From: Candidatus Omnitrophota bacterium
GTDB taxonomy: Bacteria > Omnitrophota > Gorgyraeia > Zapsychrales > JAHFGK01
Direction: 5' to 3'
Assembly: GCA_023247475.1 (NCBI GenBank)
Contig: JAHFGK010000005.1
Location: forward strand, 1 to 34,872
DNA: 34,872 nt
Each line of letters begins with the position of its first letter. Position 1 is the first letter of the stretch. Position numbers and translations under genes: made by a program. Positions 6,870-15,709 of this stretch are shown here, in pieces. A model generated the notes under the pieces. The model ran no database searches. It worked only from the letters and a program-made list of their open reading frames with translations, and was not told where the DNA came from.

Positions 6870-7913
6870 TTAAATGTTGACAGCAGTAAATGTAGCAGAA
6901 ATGAGTTTAGAGAGATGTTGCAGATTCTCAAGCCCATCTTCAATTTTTGACTCTTCTTTCTTAGTGTGTAAATTCAAAACCCCGTAAACCTTGTTTTTAG
7001 AACTGAGGGGCATCACAATGGCTTGTTTTATCTCGGGTCTTTTTAACAAATGCTTGATCCTATTTTCTCCCTGGGTGCCTTTAATAAGAAACGGAGAATT
7101 GTCCTTGGCAGCCAATCCCGCAATCCCTTCCCCAAGCTTAAGACGTGTATTTTGAACCCTAGTCTCATCCAAACCACGGGAAACTTTAATAATAAGCTCT
7201 CCTTTCTTTTCATCTAAAATCATAATCGAACCGCACTCTGTCTTGGTAATATTTAAAGCCGCATCCAATAAGGTTACCAATAATTCGTCCATATGGATAG
7301 AGGCATAAATTTCCTCGGCTGCCTTTCGGAATTTCTTCGACAATCCATCTTGAGCTAAATTAATGCTATCTAGGTTATATTGCTCTAATTTATGCTCAAT
7401 CACATCTCTGATAAGGGCCGCAAGCAGATCCAATATCGATTGAATAGTCAGAAACGAGACAACGCGAATCTCATTAATAGCTCCCATCAAATCATCACAA
7501 CTAAAATTCAGTCTTTTAGCTATTTCTTGATACTCAGTATGCTCTAATCGCTTATTTAAGATGATTGGTCCAAGAATCACATAGGCAATCGTTTTTCCTC
7601 CTTCTTTGATGACACTCACCGGAATAGCAAAAGTATGCAAATCAAACGGATCTTTCAACTCATAATAGGATCCTATTCTTTCAAATCGTTGGATAAATTC
7701 CTCTGGTTTAATGGTAGCCCCCATCCCAAACGGTGAATTAGTGAGAAGCTCACAACCATAGGACAATTTGTTTCCCTGTCCTTTTACTGGTGCTATAAGA
7801 ATATGTCCATCATGATCCACCAGAAACATATTAATTCTTAAAACATCAACAAAGCGGTACATAATATCGGCCCACTTTGTCTTATCAATTAATTGTTCAG
7901 GGAATTGTTTCAT
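6870..7913 (-). CDS. PocR-type ligand-binding domain plus GAF domain sensor protein
   Basis: N-terminal half resembles PocR (DVLRINMFLVDHDGHILIAP...CELLTNSPFG...FDLHTFAIPV...AYVILGPIIL); C-terminal half is GAF-like (CGSIMILDEKKGELIIKVSRGLDE...VYGVLNLHTKK). Confidence 0.78.
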   Translation of the reverse strand: MKQFPEQLIDKTKWADIMYRFVDVLRINMFLVDHDGHILIAPVKGQGNKLSYGCELLTNSPFGMGATIKPEEFIQRFERIGSYYELKDPFDLHTFAIPVSVIKEGGKTIAYVILGPIILNKRLEHTEYQEIAKRLNFSCDDLMGAINEIRVVSFLTIQSILDLLAALIRDVIEHKLEQYNLDSINLAQDGLSKKFRKAAEEIYASIHMDELLVTLLDAALNITKTECGSIMILDEKKGELIIKVSRGLDETRVQNTRLKLGEGIAGLAAKDNSPFLIKGTQGENRIKHLLKRPEIKQAIVMPLSSKNKVYGVLNLHTKKEESKIEDGLENLQHLSKLISATFTAVNI

Positions 7914-7953: not shown

Positions 7954-9357
7954 TTATAACTTTGTTGGCTTTACAAAAGAAATATTGTATTTTTTCATTT
8001 TGTTATAAAGTGTTGTCCTATTGATGCCTAACACGGCTGCAGCCTTATTGCGGTTCCAATTACATTCATGCAAAACGGATAGGATAAGATCCTTCTCAGG
8101 TTGTTCCAAAACTTTTTTTAGTGATTTTCCATTCGTTGGAGCCAGTGATGCTGTGCTCATAAATTTGGATACATTCGGGATATCCCACTTATTGATAATT
8201 TCAGTCTTGGCCATAATAACTGCTCCCTCAATAGCATTTTCTAATTCCCGAATGTTCCCCGGCCAATGATATTCCATAAATAGAATCCTCATCTCATCTG
8301 AAATACCTTTTATCTTCTTATTATTTTTTTGGCTATATTTTTCAATAAAATATTTAACCAAAAAATCAATGTCCTCTTTACGTTCATTTAAAGGCGGCAG
8401 CTCAACAAAAATTACATTGATACGATAGTAAAGATCTTCGCGAAATTGACCTTTAGACACGAGGTCATTGAGATCCCGATTTGTAGCCACAATTATGCGA
8501 GCATCCGTCTTTCTGGTGGTGTTGTCCCCTACCTGCTCAAATACCCCATCTTGTAAGACTCTTAAGAGTTTGACCTGTAAAGCTGGGGAAAAGGCATCAA
8601 TCTCATCTAAAAAAATCGTCCCCCCTTTAGCATATTCAAAACGACCCTCTTTATCTCGGATAGCACCTGTAAATGCCCCTTTCACATGCCCAAAAAGTTC
8701 GCTTTCCAGGAGGGTTTCAGATAAGGCACCACAACTAACCTCAATAAAAGGTTTATCCTTTCTATTGCGATCACAGTGATGAATGGCTCGGGCAACCAAT
8801 CCTTTACCTGTACCACTTTCTCCATTGATCAGAATCGTTGCATTACTACTCGCGACGGATTCAATCATCTGATAAATTTTCTGCATCTTTTCGCTGATGC
8901 CAATCATCCCACAGAAAGAATCCCGATGCGTCTTCTGAATAATCTTCCGCAAATTTTTATTTTCTTCTAAAATCTGCTTTTTCTCAGTAATTTTACGGAT
9001 AATCATCTTGATTTCATTATCATTGATTGGCTTGGTAATGTAATCATAAGCGCCTTTTTTCATGGCTTCCACAGCTGTTTCGATCGTGCCGTACCCTGTG
9101 ATCAAGATCACCTCAATCTCTGAGAAATCTTCTTTAACCCTCGTTAGTAAATCAATTCCACTCATATGAGGCAACTTTAAATCCGTTACGACAATATCTA
9201 CTTTCCCCTGTTTAACAATCTCAAGAGCCTCCTCCCCACTTTGTACCATTTGTGCCCGATATCCCTCAATGCGTAAGATCTCATAAAGAGACTCGCGAAT
9301 CAGAGGCTCATCATCTACAAGTAAAATATGGTATCTGTTATAAATCTCTTTATCCAT
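7954..9357 (-). CDS. NtrC-family sigma-54-dependent response regulator (receiver-AAA+-Fis HTH)
   Basis: Receiver domain (LLVDDEPLIRE, DIVVTDLKLP), Walker A GESGTGKG, sigma-54 contact loop GAFTGA, Fis-type HTH (NRNKAAAVLGINRTTLYNKMKKY). Confidence 0.96.
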   Translation of the reverse strand: MDKEIYNRYHILLVDDEPLIRESLYEILRIEGYRAQMVQSGEEALEIVKQGKVDIVVTDLKLPHMSGIDLLTRVKEDFSEIEVILITGYGTIETAVEAMKKGAYDYITKPINDNEIKMIIRKITEKKQILEENKNLRKIIQKTHRDSFCGMIGISEKMQKIYQMIESVASSNATILINGESGTGKGLVARAIHHCDRNRKDKPFIEVSCGALSETLLESELFGHVKGAFTGAIRDKEGRFEYAKGGTIFLDEIDAFSPALQVKLLRVLQDGVFEQVGDNTTRKTDARIIVATNRDLNDLVSKGQFREDLYYRINVIFVELPPLNERKEDIDFLVKYFIEKYSQKNNKKIKGISDEMRILFMEYHWPGNIRELENAIEGAVIMAKTEIINKWDIPNVSKFMSTASLAPTNGKSLKKVLEQPEKDLILSVLHECNWNRNKAAAVLGINRTTLYNKMKKYNISFVKPTKL

Positions 9358-9361
9358 CAGA

Positions 9362-10651
9362 TTAAACCGGAATGGTAACGATGAAACTCGTTCCCTTTTT
9401 GAGCTTGCTTTCTACATTAATTCCACCATTATAACTTTTGACAATCTCATTGACAATCGTCAACCCCAATCCGCATCCTTTATCAATGTCTTTGGTGGTA
9501 TAGAATGGCTCAAATATCTTTTCTATATTTGCTTCAAGGATTCCACATCCGTTGTCACGAACTTCAATGGAAATCGCATCATCTTTAAAAAAAGTAATAA
9601 GATGGATAGTGCCTCCATCGTCCACGGCATCAATAGAATTGCGAATGAGATTGGAAACAACTCGCTCTAGCCCCAGATCAATAATTTTAGGAAGTTTAGA
9701 AGTTAAATCCTTTTTTAAAATGATATTTTTCTGGTAAATTTCTGATTGTGAAGTCTGTAGAGCCATATCGATGGCATGATTCGGATCAATCTTTTCCATG
9801 GCCGGTGGGCTACTGCGTGAACAGGCCAACAGACTACGCACAATATTTGCCATGCGATCTAAACCATGTTTAATTTCTAAAAGATAACCGCGTATGACCT
9901 CATCGTCTTTAACGTGCTCTAAGCAAAGGTTGGTGTAGCGCATAACACCATCCAAAGGATTATTAAATTCATGGGCTATTCCACCAGCTAATTTACCGAT
10001 AGTTGCTAATTTTTCCTGTAGGACAATTTGTTTCTTGAGATGCTTGGCTTCTTGACTGCTTTTCCCTAATTCATTTTTGAGTGTTCTTGATTTTTTAACA
10101 ACAATTTTAAACTTCTCATAAAGTTGTATTCGTCGATAGTTTAAGGCGATCTGACTAGAAATAAAATCTAGCAGTTGTAGTTCTTCTGTATTAAAAGGGC
10201 AACCACTCTCTTTATCCGTAATATTAATAACACCAGTGAGTTTATCCTTCACCAAAAGTGGAGCACAAATGAATGAAGTGGTTTTGTAGCCTTTCCGAGC
10301 CTTGTACCCTCGGAAACGACTATCTTGGGATATATCATCCACACAAACTGGCTTTTTAAGTTCCGCCACCCGGCCTACAACCCCCTCTCCTATTCTTTTA
10401 ACCATATTTTTCTGTTCTGAGGCGGCCATCCCACAAGCTATCTTAAGAATCAAGTCCTTGCCATTTTCCTTAAGTATAAAGATAGAGCCCCGCTTAGCAC
10501 CAAATAACTCCATAGTCTTTTTTAAAGAAACCTCCAGGAGCTCCTTAGCGTTGCTAACTGTATTGACTGCAGTACAGATATCGCTAACCTTTTCAAAAAC
10601 TTCTGCCTGCGACAGTCCTTCAACAATGTGTTTTGAATCCCTGGTCTTCAT
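9362..10651 (-). CDS. GAF domain sensor histidine kinase (no obvious TM segment)
   Basis: GAF region (AKRGSIFILKENGKDLILKIACG), H-box GGIAHEFNNPLDG, HATPase motifs (NSIDAVDDGG, VRDNGCGI, GCGLGLTIVNEIV). Confidence 0.94.
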   Translation of the reverse strand: MKTRDSKHIVEGLSQAEVFEKVSDICTAVNTVSNAKELLEVSLKKTMELFGAKRGSIFILKENGKDLILKIACGMAASEQKNMVKRIGEGVVGRVAELKKPVCVDDISQDSRFRGYKARKGYKTTSFICAPLLVKDKLTGVINITDKESGCPFNTEELQLLDFISSQIALNYRRIQLYEKFKIVVKKSRTLKNELGKSSQEAKHLKKQIVLQEKLATIGKLAGGIAHEFNNPLDGVMRYTNLCLEHVKDDEVIRGYLLEIKHGLDRMANIVRSLLACSRSSPPAMEKIDPNHAIDMALQTSQSEIYQKNIILKKDLTSKLPKIIDLGLERVVSNLIRNSIDAVDDGGTIHLITFFKDDAISIEVRDNGCGILEANIEKIFEPFYTTKDIDKGCGLGLTIVNEIVKSYNGGINVESKLKKGTSFIVTIPV

Positions 10652-11550
10652 CCTGGTTTTTGGTTGGTTACAGCATTTTTACTTTTTAATTCACCCAAAG
10701 ATTTAATCATCTGTCTTAGAATATTGGTCATAGGGTGTTGAGGATGCTTGTTAATAAATTCTTGGTAAATTCCAATGGGAATGTCGTAATTTTGAAGTTG
10801 GGTTACTGAGACAGTATTGATAAATTTAATAAGCAAGCTAGCTCTTGCAGAATTAAGATACTCTTGAGATGGATAATTATTGAGGATTTTCCCCAAAACC
10901 TCAACTCCCTCCCGCCAATTCTTACGACTAAAATAACAGGTAGCTAAAAGCCGCCATGCGTTGAATTCCATAGGAGAACTTGGATATCGATTAGAAACAT
11001 CCTTATAATAAGAAATGGCCGTGTCAAACGCCTTTTCTCCTTGAGTCAGGTCTCCATTTCTTTGGTAATAGCTGGCTATATAAAGAGGCATATTCAAACC
11101 AGTCATCGTCAAGGGATATTCGTCTTGCACCTTTTCATAAATATTCAGAGCCTCAGTCCAATTATTCTCTCGCTCGTAAGTTTGTGCGGTCCCTACTAAA
11201 GCTTCAGCACAAAGTTCCTGATTTTCTGGATATTTACTAATTATTTTAAGATAACTTTCTCTCGCTCTTGTAAAATCTTTCTTAAGAAGATAAACATTCC
11301 CTATTTGAAGATAAATCCTAGGAGTAAGCTTCGCCTTGGGATAATTTTGGACGATTTCGTCATACTGATTAGCGATTCGCTCAAACTCATTATCAGGTAC
11401 AAACTTAGGATCCTTTTTCGTCAATTTTCTATATTGATTATTAACCCGCCATAGGCTCCGTTCAACTTTATAATCACTTGTGTCTATCTCAGATAAAAAA
11501 ATATAAAGCCCAATAAGTATTAGCCCAAATAATACAAGGAGTTTCTTCAT
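10648..11550 (-). CDS. TPR-repeat outer-membrane-assembly/tol-pal-like protein
   Basis: Repeated TPR-like units (RIYLQIGNVYLLKKDFTRARESYLKIISKYPENQ, EALNIYEKVQDEYPLT, AWRLLATCYFSRKNWREGVEVLGKIL), N-terminal TM/signal. Confidence 0.8.
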   Translation of the reverse strand: MKKLLVLFGLILIGLYIFLSEIDTSDYKVERSLWRVNNQYRKLTKKDPKFVPDNEFERIANQYDEIVQNYPKAKLTPRIYLQIGNVYLLKKDFTRARESYLKIISKYPENQELCAEALVGTAQTYERENNWTEALNIYEKVQDEYPLTMTGLNMPLYIASYYQRNGDLTQGEKAFDTAISYYKDVSNRYPSSPMEFNAWRLLATCYFSRKNWREGVEVLGKILNNYPSQEYLNSARASLLIKFINTVSVTQLQNYDIPIGIYQEFINKHPQHPMTNILRQMIKSLGELKSKNAVTNQKPG

Positions 11551-12428
11551 GTTGTTTCTTTCTTAAAAAGGTAATAGATGGTCATGGCAGTATAAATCAT
11601 GGTATCAATCACAATCAAAAGAGTGAGACTAATCACAAGAATGATCACACGTAGTTCCGGGAAAACGGTATCCGAAAACTTAACTATAGTTGTTCTCAAC
11701 AATAAAATAGTCCCAAATGGTACATGTGCCAGAATAACAATAGCCAGCACTAACCAAAAAGATCGTACTATCATTCTGAAATTTAACGCCAGTGCCTTAA
11801 AAAATTTTCCTTTTTCAATTACAATAATTGGAAGAACAAAGGCAAATAAGGTGGTAATAAAAATACCGATTAATAAACTAAGATATGGTGCTCCATCGAC
11901 AACAATCATTTTAACTACATAAAGGATCCCCTTTTGCGGGTCAATAAGAGAAGCTTGTTGAACTACCATATCATAAAGTTTTATTAAACCGACGTAAGAG
12001 ACGGAGATAACACACGCGGCCATAGATATGGAAACATACATCCGCAATGTTTCTATAAATTTCTTTCCTAAAATTATTTTTTGACCACGGTTAATATCAG
12101 TAATCACGGCGATGGCAACAGCCATCAAATAGTTGGAAAAAAATATATAGATTGGAATTTGAGCCAATTGAAACTGTTCCGCTAGCTCAATTAGATTGAA
12201 TGGATAGTGTAAGTATTTCTCCCCCCAGAAGGTTTGAACAATAGGACCAAAAAATGTAGATAATGGATACCGTGGGGCAAAATATAATAATTCTAATACA
12301 AGTAATTGAATAAAAAGTATTATAATAGCCGGCACCCATATATCCTGATAACTCTCCAAAATATAAATGGTCTGCCGTAATAAAAGAAAGGTATGTCCTT
12401 GTTTAACTTTCTTATCCATGAAAGCCAT
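11547..12428 (-). CDS. Polytopic membrane protein
   Basis: Several hydrophobic segments. Overlaps the TPR gene by 4 bp. Confidence 0.75.
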   Translation of the reverse strand: MAFMDKKVKQGHTFLLLRQTIYILESYQDIWVPAIIILFIQLLVLELLYFAPRYPLSTFFGPIVQTFWGEKYLHYPFNLIELAEQFQLAQIPIYIFFSNYLMAVAIAVITDINRGQKIILGKKFIETLRMYVSISMAACVISVSYVGLIKLYDMVVQQASLIDPQKGILYVVKMIVVDGAPYLSLLIGIFITTLFAFVLPIIVIEKGKFFKALALNFRMIVRSFWLVLAIVILAHVPFGTILLLRTTIVKFSDTVFPELRVIILVISLTLLIVIDTMIYTAMTIYYLFKKETT

Positions 12429-12504: not shown

Positions 12505-12533
12505 ATTTTATCATAGGGGTTTCTAGATGTCAA
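12505..12533 (-). promoter_or_regulatory. Sigma-70-type promoter for the 12428-6870 regulatory operon
   Basis: Minus strand TTGACA - 17 nt - TAAAAT (-35 perfect, -10 with one mismatch), about 75-100 bp upstream of the first gene. Confidence 0.65.
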
Positions 12534-12556
12534 ACAGAATCCCACGGAATATGCAA

Positions 12557-12593
12557 AAAAAAGGCAGGTTACATTTATTAACCTGCCTTTTTT
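12557..12593 (-). terminator. Intrinsic terminator (apparently bidirectional) downstream of the PEP-CTERM lipoprotein gene
   Basis: 15-bp perfect inverted repeat AAAAAAGGCAGGTTA / TAACCTGCCTTTTTT with a 7-nt loop. Confidence 0.9.
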
Positions 12594-12633
12594 GGGCTTC
12601 TCGTTACATTTAATGACGAGCTATATTAATTTC

Positions 12634-13017
12634 TTATACTCTACGATTTTTCCTCTTTTTAGAATATGCCATTGCCATCAAACCCGTGCCCAACAATAAC
12701 ATACTTGTTGGCTCAGGATTTACAATGCTCGCTATCTGGTCACCAGAACCACTCCCTCCGCCAACTCCACCACTCCCTCCGCCAACTCCACCACTCCCTC
12801 CTGCGGCCACACTACCAGCGGAATCCCCACTGCCGCCACCGACAATTCCAGCAAAGGTACTTTCACCACTGGATGAGCTGCCACTTCCACCACTATCTCC
12901 GCTAAACAAGCTACCCAATCCCCCACCACCGCCTCCACCACCTTTACACCCATAAACACAGGGAAGAAGCAATGAAAGGATAACAACACCTAACAAATGA
13001 TTAAATTTTGTTTTCAT
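12634..13017 (-). CDS. Gly/Ser-rich putative lipoprotein with C-terminal PEP-CTERM sorting signal
   Basis: N-terminal signal with a VYGC lipobox-like site; Gly/Ser-rich middle; C-terminal NPEPTSMLLLGTGLMAMAYSKKRKNRR (PEP motif, TM, basic tail). Confidence 0.85.
   Translation of the reverse strand: MKTKFNHLLGVVILSLLLPCVYGCKGGGGGGGGLGSLFSGDSGGSGSSSSGESTFAGIVGGGSGDSAGSVAAGGSGGVGGGSGGVGGGSGSGDQIASIVNPEPTSMLLLGTGLMAMAYSKKRKNRRV
12751..12801 (-). repeat. 21-bp coding tandem repeat (about 2.4 copies) encoding GGVGGGS units
   Basis: actccctccgccaactccacc at 12751-12771 and 12772-12792, then a partial copy to 12801. Confidence 0.85.
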
Positions 13018-13083: not shown

Positions 13084-13929
13084 TCATCTGGCCCCTTCTC
13101 CGGTAAATATAACTCTAATTGTTCTTAGTATAATCCTTAGATCCGTCCACAAGCAAATTTTCCTAATATATAAGATATCATATTTTATTTTCTTTCGTAC
13201 ATCCTCAATAGTCTCATCATATTTGTGCCATACCTGAGCTAATCCTGTTATTCCCGGCTTTACCACTAAACGCTTTTCATAATCCCTTATTTCTTTTCTA
13301 AATCTTTCAACGAACATTGGCCTTTCTGGTCTAGGGCCGATAACACTCATCTCTCCTTTTAAAACATTTATAAATTGGGGAATCTCATCAATATGGGTCC
13401 TGCGTAAAAATCCACCCACCGGAGTAAGACGATTATCATTTTGGGCAGCCCAGATCGGACCTGTTTCTTTTTCCGCATCAACACGCATGGTACGAAATTT
13501 ATAAATTTTAAATACCACCTCATCTTTTCCCACGCGTTCTTGAGTAAAAAGTATTGACCCCCTAGATGTCAATTTTATAAGAATAGCTGTTGCCAACATT
13601 AGGGGTGATAATACTATAAAAGCTAAGACAGAAATCATAATGTCAAATACCCTTTTCGCGATGGCATAGGTTCTTCGAACAAAACTTATGATCATTCCTA
13701 ATATTCCACTGCCAAAAAGAGCCATTGTCGATGGTTCCGGTGCTCGTGCTTTCGAAGTTTCCGAAGATTTTAAATTAACGTTCGAAATTTTAAAATTATC
13801 TTGTTGATCATTACCAGGAAAATCAAATATGGTCGAAGCGGCCTGTGCAGTAGAAATAACAAACCAACTCAAAAGGCTAAACAAGATAATAAGATATAAA
13901 TTTTTCGCATGCCTTTCTGGTTTTTTCAT
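13084..13929 (-). CDS. PEP-CTERM domain fused to an undecaprenyl-phosphate sugar transferase (EPS-initiating phosphoglycosyltransferase)
   Basis: Signal peptide (NLYLIILFSLLSWFVISTAQA), APEPSTMALFGSGILGMIISFVRR PEP-CTERM signature, then the bacterial sugar transferase core (KRVFDIMISVLAFIVLSPLML, FTQERVG, YKFRTMRVDAE, RRTHIDEIPQFINVLKGEMSVIGPRPERP, KPGITGLAQV). Confidence 0.93.
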   Translation of the reverse strand: MKKPERHAKNLYLIILFSLLSWFVISTAQAASTIFDFPGNDQQDNFKISNVNLKSSETSKARAPEPSTMALFGSGILGMIISFVRRTYAIAKRVFDIMISVLAFIVLSPLMLATAILIKLTSRGSILFTQERVGKDEVVFKIYKFRTMRVDAEKETGPIWAAQNDNRLTPVGGFLRRTHIDEIPQFINVLKGEMSVIGPRPERPMFVERFRKEIRDYEKRLVVKPGITGLAQVWHKYDETIEDVRKKIKYDILYIRKICLWTDLRIILRTIRVIFTGEGAR

Positions 13930-13966
13930 ACTTTAGAATCCCTTTCGATTCCAACATTGATTAATA

Positions 13967-13982
13967 AGCAAGTTCTATGCCA
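13967..13982 (-). promoter_or_regulatory. Sigma-54 (-24/-12) promoter
   Basis: Minus strand TGGCATAGAACTTGCT: GG-N10-GC spacing and TGGCA/TTGCT elements, about 38 bp upstream of the sugar transferase ATG. Confidence 0.8.
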
Positions 13983-14071
13983 ACTTTTTAACTCTAATTG
14001 TATTTTTTAATATTTATGTAACTACTTGATAATAAATGATTTATATTTTATTAAAATTGCAAATTTATGAT

Positions 14072-14143
14072 GACATTATATGACAGTCCTAGACAATATT
14101 AGACAATCATTGTCAAGTTAATGTCGAAATTATTAAACTTGTC
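14072..14143. promoter_or_regulatory. Cluster of GACA/TGTC half sites; candidate enhancer (UAS) for an NtrC-family activator
   Basis: GACA at 14072, 14082, 14092 and 14102 (exact 10-bp phasing), TGTC at 14111, 14122 and 14140, and perfect palindrome GACAATCATTGTC at 14102-14114, about 90-160 bp upstream of the sigma-54 promoter. Confidence 0.6.
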
Positions 14144-14228
14144 TAAATTATTAACAAGTAAATAATACTAATTTACTATATATTAGGAGTTTTGCGTGAA
14201 TATGAATAGGAAGGAAAACATGAAATTT

Positions 14229-14873
14229 CTAAAGAAGGTAGGTTAACAAAAACGGCATAATTTGCTGGCTGAATTCTTTAAGATCACTTAACGCCTTTTG
14301 TTCAGAATCCTTGATAGTAATGGAAACTCGAATTAAAGCGCTACTTGCAGATTTGCCAAAAAAAGTTTTCAAAGCAATTAAACCTTGTTGTTGCCAATAA
14401 TTGGTTGTAAAAGAATTCCCAACCTTAAACCAATAAAATGATATTTGTCGTAAATCTCGCTGCTCTAGAAGTAACTTATTGACATTGACAACCAAGGGTT
14501 GCGAACTGTTCGTATTAACATTGAAGCTGTCACGATAGTTTCCTAAAATGGTCACGCCACTGCCGGTATAACATATCTCAGGGGGATGGGATACCTTCCG
14601 GTTATTCTGTGAATACACAATCAATAAATAAACTTCTTTACCATAGGGGGTAAAATATCTTCGCGCAAAAGCATTTCTTGTTTCTAGAATGGCATATTCC
14701 TGATCAGTAATCAATAAATCCTGGGATGTCCAATCCCCTATCGTTTTAGGGAATTGATTAATATCAATGGTATCTTTCTGCTGATAGACTTTAAAATAAA
14801 GAGTCCAGGAAATGACCCCAGACAGAATGAAAAGAAACAAAATCAATTTGTAACTTTTACCTGATTCTTTCAT
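14229..14873 (-). CDS. EpsI family exosortase-associated protein
   Basis: One N-terminal TM, FPKTIGDWTSQDL, and SHPPEICYTGSGVTILG typical of the EpsI family. Overlaps the exosortase gene by 4 bp. Confidence 0.88.
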   Translation of the reverse strand: MKESGKSYKLILFLFILSGVISWTLYFKVYQQKDTIDINQFPKTIGDWTSQDLLITDQEYAILETRNAFARRYFTPYGKEVYLLIVYSQNNRKVSHPPEICYTGSGVTILGNYRDSFNVNTNSSQPLVVNVNKLLLEQRDLRQISFYWFKVGNSFTTNYWQQQGLIALKTFFGKSASSALIRVSITIKDSEQKALSDLKEFSQQIMPFLLTYLL

Positions 14874-15709
14874 TCGATTAATTTCACCATCCCATATAGC
14901 AAAATAAAAGCCAATCCGAAAACCAAAAGCCCAGTTGCATTATGAAGAAAACCAATAGCATATCGAGGCCCCCAAATTTCACTAACAGAAGACAAAACTA
15001 TAACACGAAAAACATTGGTCACAACAGCAATGGGAATCGTTGATAAAAAAACTAAAATGCGTTTGAACGTTGACCCCTTCATCCAATAAGCAAAGATACT
15101 ACCCAATGCCATTAAGGAAATCAGTGACCGTAAGCCACTACAGACATCATCAACAATCACATACGCACGAGACATTTTGATAATACTTCCCTCCTGAACA
15201 GCATGCAGACCCATCGCATTGAGAATCAAAGCAGCAAGATGAGCAGCAAATAATTTTAATTTAAAGCTTATATTGACAACAACGACGAGGGGCAATGGCA
15301 TCATAAAAATTAGGAAACAAACGGGAAAAGCAACCTTTCTAAAAACAGTCTTTCCATAAAAGTGAAGAATTATGCCGGCTAAAACGATCATCATGGAAAA
15401 ACTAGAAGAAAAGTAAACGCGGAAAAAGGAACTCAAAATATGAATACAGAGCCCTAAAACAATTAACCACACTCCCCAAGGGGACGGTTCAATAGGAGTG
15501 GATACGATATCTCTTCTTTTATACCAAATGAGGTATCCTACTACGAGAGGAATCAAAATGCCGTGGCTATAATAGGAATCCCTAACAAACCAACGATCCC
15601 ACATCCATAAAAGCGTTGGAAAATAGGTTAGAATAAAGACGATACCTAAAATAACTTGCCTCTTATGGCGTACAAAAAAATTATTGCCTATATTCACTGC
15701 ACCATTCAC
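14870..15709 (-). CDS. Exosortase (EpsH/Xrt family)
   Basis: Polytopic; YYSHGILIPLVVGYLIW, putative catalytic Cys in DDVCSGLRSLISL, Arg in TNVFRVIVL, His in GFLHNATG. Confidence 0.95.
   Translation of the reverse strand: MNGAVNIGNNFFVRHKRQVILGIVFILTYFPTLLWMWDRWFVRDSYYSHGILIPLVVGYLIWYKRRDIVSTPIEPSPWGVWLIVLGLCIHILSSFFRVYFSSSFSMMIVLAGIILHFYGKTVFRKVAFPVCFLIFMMPLPLVVVVNISFKLKLFAAHLAALILNAMGLHAVQEGSIIKMSRAYVIVDDVCSGLRSLISLMALGSIFAYWMKGSTFKRILVFLSTIPIAVVTNVFRVIVLSSVSEIWGPRYAIGFLHNATGLLVFGLAFILLYGMVKLIE

Follow-up and report, generated by a model that had tools for sequence, protein, structure and literature searches.

A putative composite sigma-54 promoter ahead of a PEP-CTERM/sugar-transferase fusion gene in an order of Omnitrophota

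Genes and features of the locus

The window analysed here is the whole stretch of 34,872 nucleotides at positions 1 to 34,872 of contig JAHFGK010000005.1 from a Candidatus Omnitrophota bacterium (assembly GCA_023247475.1); its features, and related ones elsewhere, are listed in Table 1. The promoter stretch has minus-strand orientation and lies between the exosortase/EpsI genes (14229-15709) and a fusion gene (13084-13929), which is predicted to start polysaccharide building and to carry an exosortase sorting tag. Residues P64, E65 and P66 of the fusion protein are invariant in 28/28 orthologues (loci L007-L034) and the hydrophobic and basic stretch that follows them is well kept, suggesting that the tag matters for this sugar transferase. 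Among the matches listed from other lineages, the sugar transferases of loci L111, L145, L152, L170 and L183 align from query residues 24-52, and these might be carriers of related fusions. By eye, a short hairpin (GAATC..GATTC) that holds an AAAGGG ribosome site in its loop could form in the leader (13930-13966) ahead of the fusion gene's coding sequence, at the 5' end of the transcript.

On the same strand, 66 bp beyond the end of the fusion gene, is a gene for a glycine-rich PEP-CTERM protein, and the two would constitute a single two-gene transcription unit, probably closed by a hairpin with a U tract (12548..12600) that is predicted to act as an intrinsic terminator, although it is absent from the output of a simple scan. 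The regulator operon is separate from this unit, and its gene order (unknown protein, TPR protein, kinase, activator, PocR/GAF protein) is kept in the relatives inspected. The first of its products (11547..12428, 293 aa) has no match in Pfam or NCBIfam. The NtrC-family regulator (7954-9357) contains a receiver domain (PF00072, with D59), a AAA+ domain (PF00158, with GAFTGA at residue 227) and a Fis-type domain (PF02954).

Table 1. Position of the elements and genes discussed (window coordinates unless a locus or contig is named; distances are relative to the -24 element)
Feature	Position	Strand	Description or basis
Sigma-54 promoter, -24/-12 element	13967..13982	-	TGGCATAGAACTTGCT; sequence; conserved in 26/28 fusion orthologues
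IHF-consensus match	14019..14031	-	TATCAAGTAGTTA; between array and promoter, at -49
Four TGTC decamers	14072..14105	-	exact 10-bp steps; proposed array for a BldC-like or other direct-repeat factor
Palindrome	14102..14114	.	GACAATCATTGTC; present; overlaps the first TGTC decamer
Dyad	14122..14139	-	AGTTTAATAATTTCGACA; at -157; one mismatch from TGTY-N10-RACA; proposed activator site
Second dyad-like site	14140..14156	-	TGTTAATAATTTAGACA; N9 variant, 17 bp; at -174
EpsI and exosortase genes	14229..15709	-	PF11984, PF09721; directly upstream of the promoter region
Fusion gene (target gene 1)	13084..13929	-	signal peptide, PEP-CTERM and bacterial sugar transferase, 281 aa; PF07589, PF02397
Glycine-rich PEP-CTERM protein (target gene 2)	12634..13017	-	127 aa; PF07589/TIGR02595
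Hairpin with U tract, intrinsic terminator candidate	12548..12600	-	-22.3 kcal/mol, z -5.85
Regulator operon promoter, sigma-70-type	12505..12533	-	TTGACA-N17-TAAAAT, 11/12 match
First gene of the regulator operon	11547..12428	-	293 aa; co-conserved
TPR protein, regulator operon	10648..11550	-	domain match; co-conserved
Histidine kinase, GAF-HisKA-HATPase	9362..10651	-	domain matches; co-conserved beside the activator
NtrC-family response regulator	7954..9357	-	receiver, AAA+ with GAFTGA, Fis HTH
PocR-GAF sensor-like protein, last gene of the regulator operon	6870..7913	-	PF10114, GAF; co-conserved
BldC-like MerR and polysaccharide-export-like operon, window's genome	L085:1-900, contig C155		sigma-54 site, TGTC array, dyad
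MerR-like protein	L085 309-476	-	copy of the window's genome has a 10-N gap
10-bp-phased TGTC arrays abutting -35 boxes	L228 (C47:6414-6428), L226, L230, L233-L235, L237, L245-L247, L249

The -24/-12 element and its probable activator

The element TGGCATAGAACTTGCT stands on the minus strand at 13982..13967, 37 bp ahead of the ATG of the fusion gene. A near-perfect TGGYAY-N5-TTGCT is found upstream of 26/28 fusion orthologues (all of one order and counting that of the window), in which the GG-N10-GC core characteristic of sigma-54 promoters sits in a TGGCAY-N5-TTGCW context. The bare string is not rare, since the strict pattern has 5 matches in the whole genome (2.45 Mb) and 4 in the reversed control, and the element is taken as real because it is conserved; strict matches on contigs C9 and C188 fall within open reading frames and were regarded as chance. 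As judged from its sequence, this -24/-12 promoter is conserved across the whole bacterial order, and it almost certainly drives the fusion gene. The first-pass annotation had already placed a GG-N10-GC element just upstream of this gene and made it the promoter of the PEP-CTERM/sugar-transferase unit, and both statements are supported by the conservation in orthologues and the presence of rpoN. It had also held that a genome without rpoN would speak against the promoter; one rpoN gene is found (PF04552, E 1.4e-53, contig C155).

The regulator encoded at 7954-9357 is the sole convincing sigma-54 activator of the genome (PF00158, 229.5 bits), and the next three PF00158 matches (34 bits or less) resemble other AAA+ proteins. 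Its orthologues occur in 26/54 genomes, plus a fragment in G032, mostly as one copy per genome and mostly near the fusion gene. Over the 54 genomes, rpoN is found in 25 and the activator in 27, with 24 common to both, and the fusion gene in 28, of which 24 also have rpoN; Fisher tests of this co-occurrence, which ignore shared ancestry, give p values of about 1e-9 to 1e-10. The comparison genomes are draft assemblies (76-98% complete), so that single gene absences weigh little. In G034, the genes for the unknown and TPR proteins remain beside the fusion gene and those for the kinase and activator are gone from a continuous, otherwise syntenic stretch; neither rpoN nor the MerR-like gene described below was found in this genome, and its fusion gene has no sigma-54 site. 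The fusion gene of G030 also stands without a sigma-54 site, no activator being detected in this genome, which keeps the MerR-like gene. G030 is unusable as a MerR-positive, rpoN-negative case, because 4000 bases of N lie beside that gene (L218, C22:32000-36000). Two genomes count against the model: G018 has rpoN and the sites and no detected activator, and G027 has the activator and no detected rpoN. The assignment of this GAFTGA-containing regulator as activator of the fusion-gene promoter, also made in the earlier reading, is very probably correct.

The dyad and the IHF-like site

Words of the type CAACATGTGTT are enriched in these promoters and resolve into a dyad, TGTY-N10-RACA, which is present in 17/26 fusion promoters and in 16/21 of the promoters divergent from rpoN (33/47 in total, against 1.4 in shuffled sequences). 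No spacing other than N10 exceeds 3 loci in the fusion set, where most dyads start between -151 and -159 and are often accompanied by another copy 20-21 bp upstream. When the dyad is combined with a sigma-54 site, the genome-wide search gives 44 matches versus 2 in the reversed control, nearly all of them in genomes with both rpoN and activator; those in G020 and G022 were taken as chance. The promoter of the window itself is not matched by this pattern; its dyads are degenerate, although the one at 14122..14139 is in register with the exact dyads at -151 to -159 of the relatives. The half-sites at 14122 and 14140, overlooked at first, are parts of these dyad-like sites. Thus, the better preserved element in the window is the TGTC array, which is perfect.

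An exact match to the consensus of IHF sites, WATCAANNNNTTR, lies in the window between the enhancer and the promoter, and was likewise missed in the first reading. Same-strand IHF-like matches at -46 to -51 number 11 over the 26 promoters, whereas in shuffles the best 6-bp stretch has 1.8 on average and at most 6. The palindrome at 14102-14114, which had been proposed as part of the enhancer, is present as described, but its spacing is not conserved in orthologues and it is probably incidental. In G040, the sigma-54/dyad regulon seems to be enlarged (contigs C122, C133 and C189), with a divergent promoter pair at C122:10364-10693.

The phased TGTC array and its occurrence at sigma-70-type promoters

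GACA starts at 14072, 14082, 14092 and 14102, exactly as first described, and corresponds to TGTC on the gene strand, the 5' ends lying at -93 to -123 relative to the -24 element. When the window's 240-bp upstream region was dinucleotide-shuffled 20,000 times, a run of three 10-bp steps never arose. Conservation of this cluster in relatives had been put forward as a check, and it is indeed conserved: TGTC-N6-TGTC is found in 17/26 orthologous fusion promoters (mean 0.135 and maximum 3 in shuffles). Same-strand TGTC pairs pooled over the 26 promoters are separated by 10 bp (n=25), 20 bp (n=17) or 30 bp (n=7), the other short distances being nearly empty. The phased array is therefore far above chance. 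A search for the array only gives 29 matches versus 6 in the control. Matches to the array pattern at the dnaX start were discarded as coding coincidences; a tighter pattern (TGTC-N6-TGTC-N60-90-sigma54) returned few sites because the actual spacings are wider, and was abandoned.

About half of the array matches lie away from sigma-54 sites. Twelve intergenic arrays are followed, 17 or 26-28 bp from the first TGTC, by a -35-like hexamer, in most cases TTGACA, and these sigma-70-type arrays stand mostly before genes for signal-peptide or exported proteins, at least 4 of them PEP-CTERM proteins, including a gene on contig C47 of the window's genome. A dyad is near only 1/14 of the sigma-70-type array loci, and no sigma-54 site is present there. 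Hence it is the dyad, and not the array, that goes with sigma-54. A complementary pattern is seen in G036, which has rpoN, the activator, the dyads and the sigma-54 site and contains neither the MerR-like gene nor an array. Together, these distributions point to the activator acting on the dyad and another factor acting on the array: the array binder is quite probably a protein other than the activator and, with slightly less assurance, the dyad is likely to be the activator's site.

The rpoN-divergent operon and a BldC-like protein

A sigma-54 promoter divergent from rpoN precedes an operon for a MerR-like HTH protein in 21/24 genomes inspected, and two further genomes have the promoter with the operon on another contig. 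This operon, conserved in most rpoN-positive relatives, also encodes, where read, a polysaccharide-export protein (PF02563). The sequence TGTC-N6-TGTC-N3-GACA is found in 18/21 of the rpoN-divergent promoters (about 0.1 expected), and in most cases a dyad comes after it. The MerR-like protein has a core of 61-70 aa that matches PF13411 (43 bits), lacks the dimerisation coiled coil, as is characteristic of BldC, and retains K-T-x-x-R-W in its recognition helix. The proteins of the order match the BldC structures 6amk and 6ama (E 2.6e-4 and 3.3e-4), and their gene co-occurs with the TGTC arrays. BldC binds direct repeats head to tail as oligomers, with one tract per helical turn (PMC5859096). 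These features make the BldC-like protein the marginally favoured candidate for the array binder.

Proposed mechanism and alternatives

The stretch 13967-14156 would be a composite, activator-dependent sigma-54 promoter for the unit of the fusion gene and the glycine-rich PEP-CTERM gene. The two-component system formed by the kinase (9362-10651) and the regulator (7954-9357) would sense a signal, and the regulator, presumably phosphorylated, would bind the TGTY-N10-RACA dyads, located at about -157 and -174 relative to the -24 element. Bending of the DNA, which an IHF/HU-like protein at 14019-14031 could aid, would let the regulator meet the RNA polymerase-sigma54. A second regulator, which would also act at PEP-CTERM genes with sigma-70 promoters, would occupy the four TGTC decamers in head-to-tail fashion, with one decamer to each helical turn. 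The best candidate for it is the BldC-like MerR protein of 60-70 residues encoded together with the polysaccharide-export gene divergently from rpoN. In this way, the initial step of polysaccharide assembly, as well as export, would be coupled to the PEP-CTERM surface proteins. Comparison of sequences supports the promoter, the dyad, the array, the position of the IHF-like site, the single activator and the co-occurrence, and the pairing of each protein with its element, the direction of the array effect and the phosphorylation are what we infer from them. As a whole, a composite promoter with the activator on the dyad and a second factor, plausibly the BldC-like protein, on the array is on balance the likelier account. 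The narrower version, in which a sigma-54 circuit with one activator, distinct in kind from PrsK/PrsR, is combined with a BldC-like protein that coats the 10-bp TGTC arrays, is tentative, its chances falling a little short of even.

The first-pass annotation had taken the 10-bp repeats as the enhancer of the NtrC-type regulator, which would itself bind them in the manner of PilR, perhaps along with the dyad. Of the elements in the window, the array is preserved best; its position, -93 to -123, is usual for an enhancer, and TGTC arrays are concentrated in activator-bearing genomes. In addition, PilR, an NtrC-family protein of Pseudomonas, has sites described as a NifA-like TGT-N11-AGA sequence with nearby GTCT elements as hallmarks (PMC6058289), so that one activator might use both elements. 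However, the arrays abut sigma-70-type -35 boxes where there is no sigma-54 site and almost never a dyad, and because of this the repeats are probably not the activator's enhancer. Furthermore, the fusion promoters of G010, G036 and G040 combine a sigma-54 site with a dyad (exact in G036 and G040, with one mismatch in G010) and have no array, and a dimer with a Fis-type HTH is expected on dyads, of which a conserved one exists. Binding of the array by the regulator itself is consequently considered unlikely.

Rather less likely still, the array could be bound by a third direct-repeat factor, for instance of the OmpR/PhoB type, that is neither the activator nor the BldC-like protein. An array just upstream of the -35 box resembles the class II activator sites of OmpR/PhoB regulators, and G007 has a sigma-70-type array with the MerR-like gene, the activator and rpoN all undetected. 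Against such a factor, G007 is only 84% complete, the promoter of the MerR-like gene itself has the array in 18/21 cases and this gene co-occurs with arrays, and G036 lacks both the gene and the array. Finally, the sites could be due to chance or be an inactive remnant, with transcription of the fusion gene coming instead from a sigma-70 promoter or from the exosortase operon upstream. The frequency of the bare -24/-12 string in the genome is compatible with this explanation, but four elements are kept in register over many genera, and the promoter is absent where rpoN, the kinase and the activator are absent, which makes it highly improbable.

Comparison with known systems

Proteobacterial PEP-CTERM genes with sigma-54 sites, together with PrsK, PrsR and PrsT, have been described in Haft 2006 (PMC1569441), where a 17-nt motif ending in TTTACA precedes the -24/-12 element by about 63 nt (32-92). 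In addition, pepA transcription is RpoN-dependent (PMC9850573). As in the PrsK/PrsR-RpoN system, the locus combines a sigma-54 promoter and an upstream activator site before PEP-CTERM genes with an NtrC-family regulator and a kinase near polysaccharide and exosortase genes, and a TPR protein is encoded nearby. The regulator, however, scores 409.8 bits against PrsR (TIGR02915), below the cut-off of 502.6, the kinase 90.7 bits against PrsK (TIGR02916, cut-off 300), having a GAF-HisKA-HATPase arrangement instead, and the TPR protein 30.6 bits against PrsT (TIGR02917, cut-off 312.2). The proteobacterial PEP-CTERM box, taken from its description in the text of Haft 2006, has no counterpart at the locus, the nearest conserved dyad being at about -157 and having a different core. 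Moreover, the TGTC array is shared with sigma-70 promoters and the main target is the sugar-transferase fusion, unlike in that system. The PrsK/PrsR-like circuit proposed earlier can thus be maintained as an analogy and not as membership: by comparison, the circuit would work like PrsK/PrsR-RpoN without belonging to it.

The similarity to PilS/PilR of Pseudomonas and Geobacter lies in the NtrC-family regulator and in the format of the site (NifA-like sequence and GTCT), whereas here the target is not a pilin and the repeats are strictly phased at 10 bp and occur also at sigma-70-type promoters. Upstream dyads and an IHF-like site between the enhancer and the -24/-12 promoter are shared with NifA/NtrC enhancers. 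NifA dyads have the spacing TGT-N10-ACA, whereas it is TGT-N12-ACA here, with an extra direct-repeat array in between. With BldC of Streptomyces (PMC5859096), the MerR-like protein shares a short winged HTH without coiled coil and, as its candidate sites, direct repeats in variable number, one per turn; BldC contacts bases via Lys26 and Arg30, and the MerR-like protein has K-T-x-x-R-W in the recognition helix. The repeat is nevertheless TGTC and not AATTXXXX(C), the gene is divergent from rpoN and accompanied by a polysaccharide-export gene, and the protein is a candidate binder only.

Haft 2006 (PMC1569441) did not settle which factors and motifs serve PEP-CTERM genes beyond the proteobacterial PrsK/PrsR set. 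The arrangement described here is a candidate answer for a whole order: one rpoN, one activator, few sigma-54 targets (the fusion gene, the operon for the MerR-like and export proteins next to rpoN and, in part of the genomes, a further PEP-CTERM gene) and, as a second layer, TGTC arrays that also stand at sigma-70-type promoters of PEP-CTERM proteins. It also tells apart two cis-elements that otherwise merge into one enhancer. Since the same arrays stand at sigma-54 and sigma-70 promoters, one small regulator may link the start and export of polysaccharide to PEP-CTERM proteins. To our knowledge, a BldC-type filament within a sigma-54 enhancer loop would be, if true, a new promoter architecture.

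The start of rpoN

A sigma-54-like match at the start of rpoN, TGGTATACTTTTTGCA, was rejected because transcription from it would begin within rpoN; an extended -10 element, TGGTATACT, is a better reading than a sigma-54 site. The rpoN start reads accordingly as a putative extended -10 promoter that would give a nearly leaderless rpoN mRNA. Directly before the rpoN ATG stands TGGTATACTTTTTGC (L085:874-892), and similar sequences are found in about 10 genomes.
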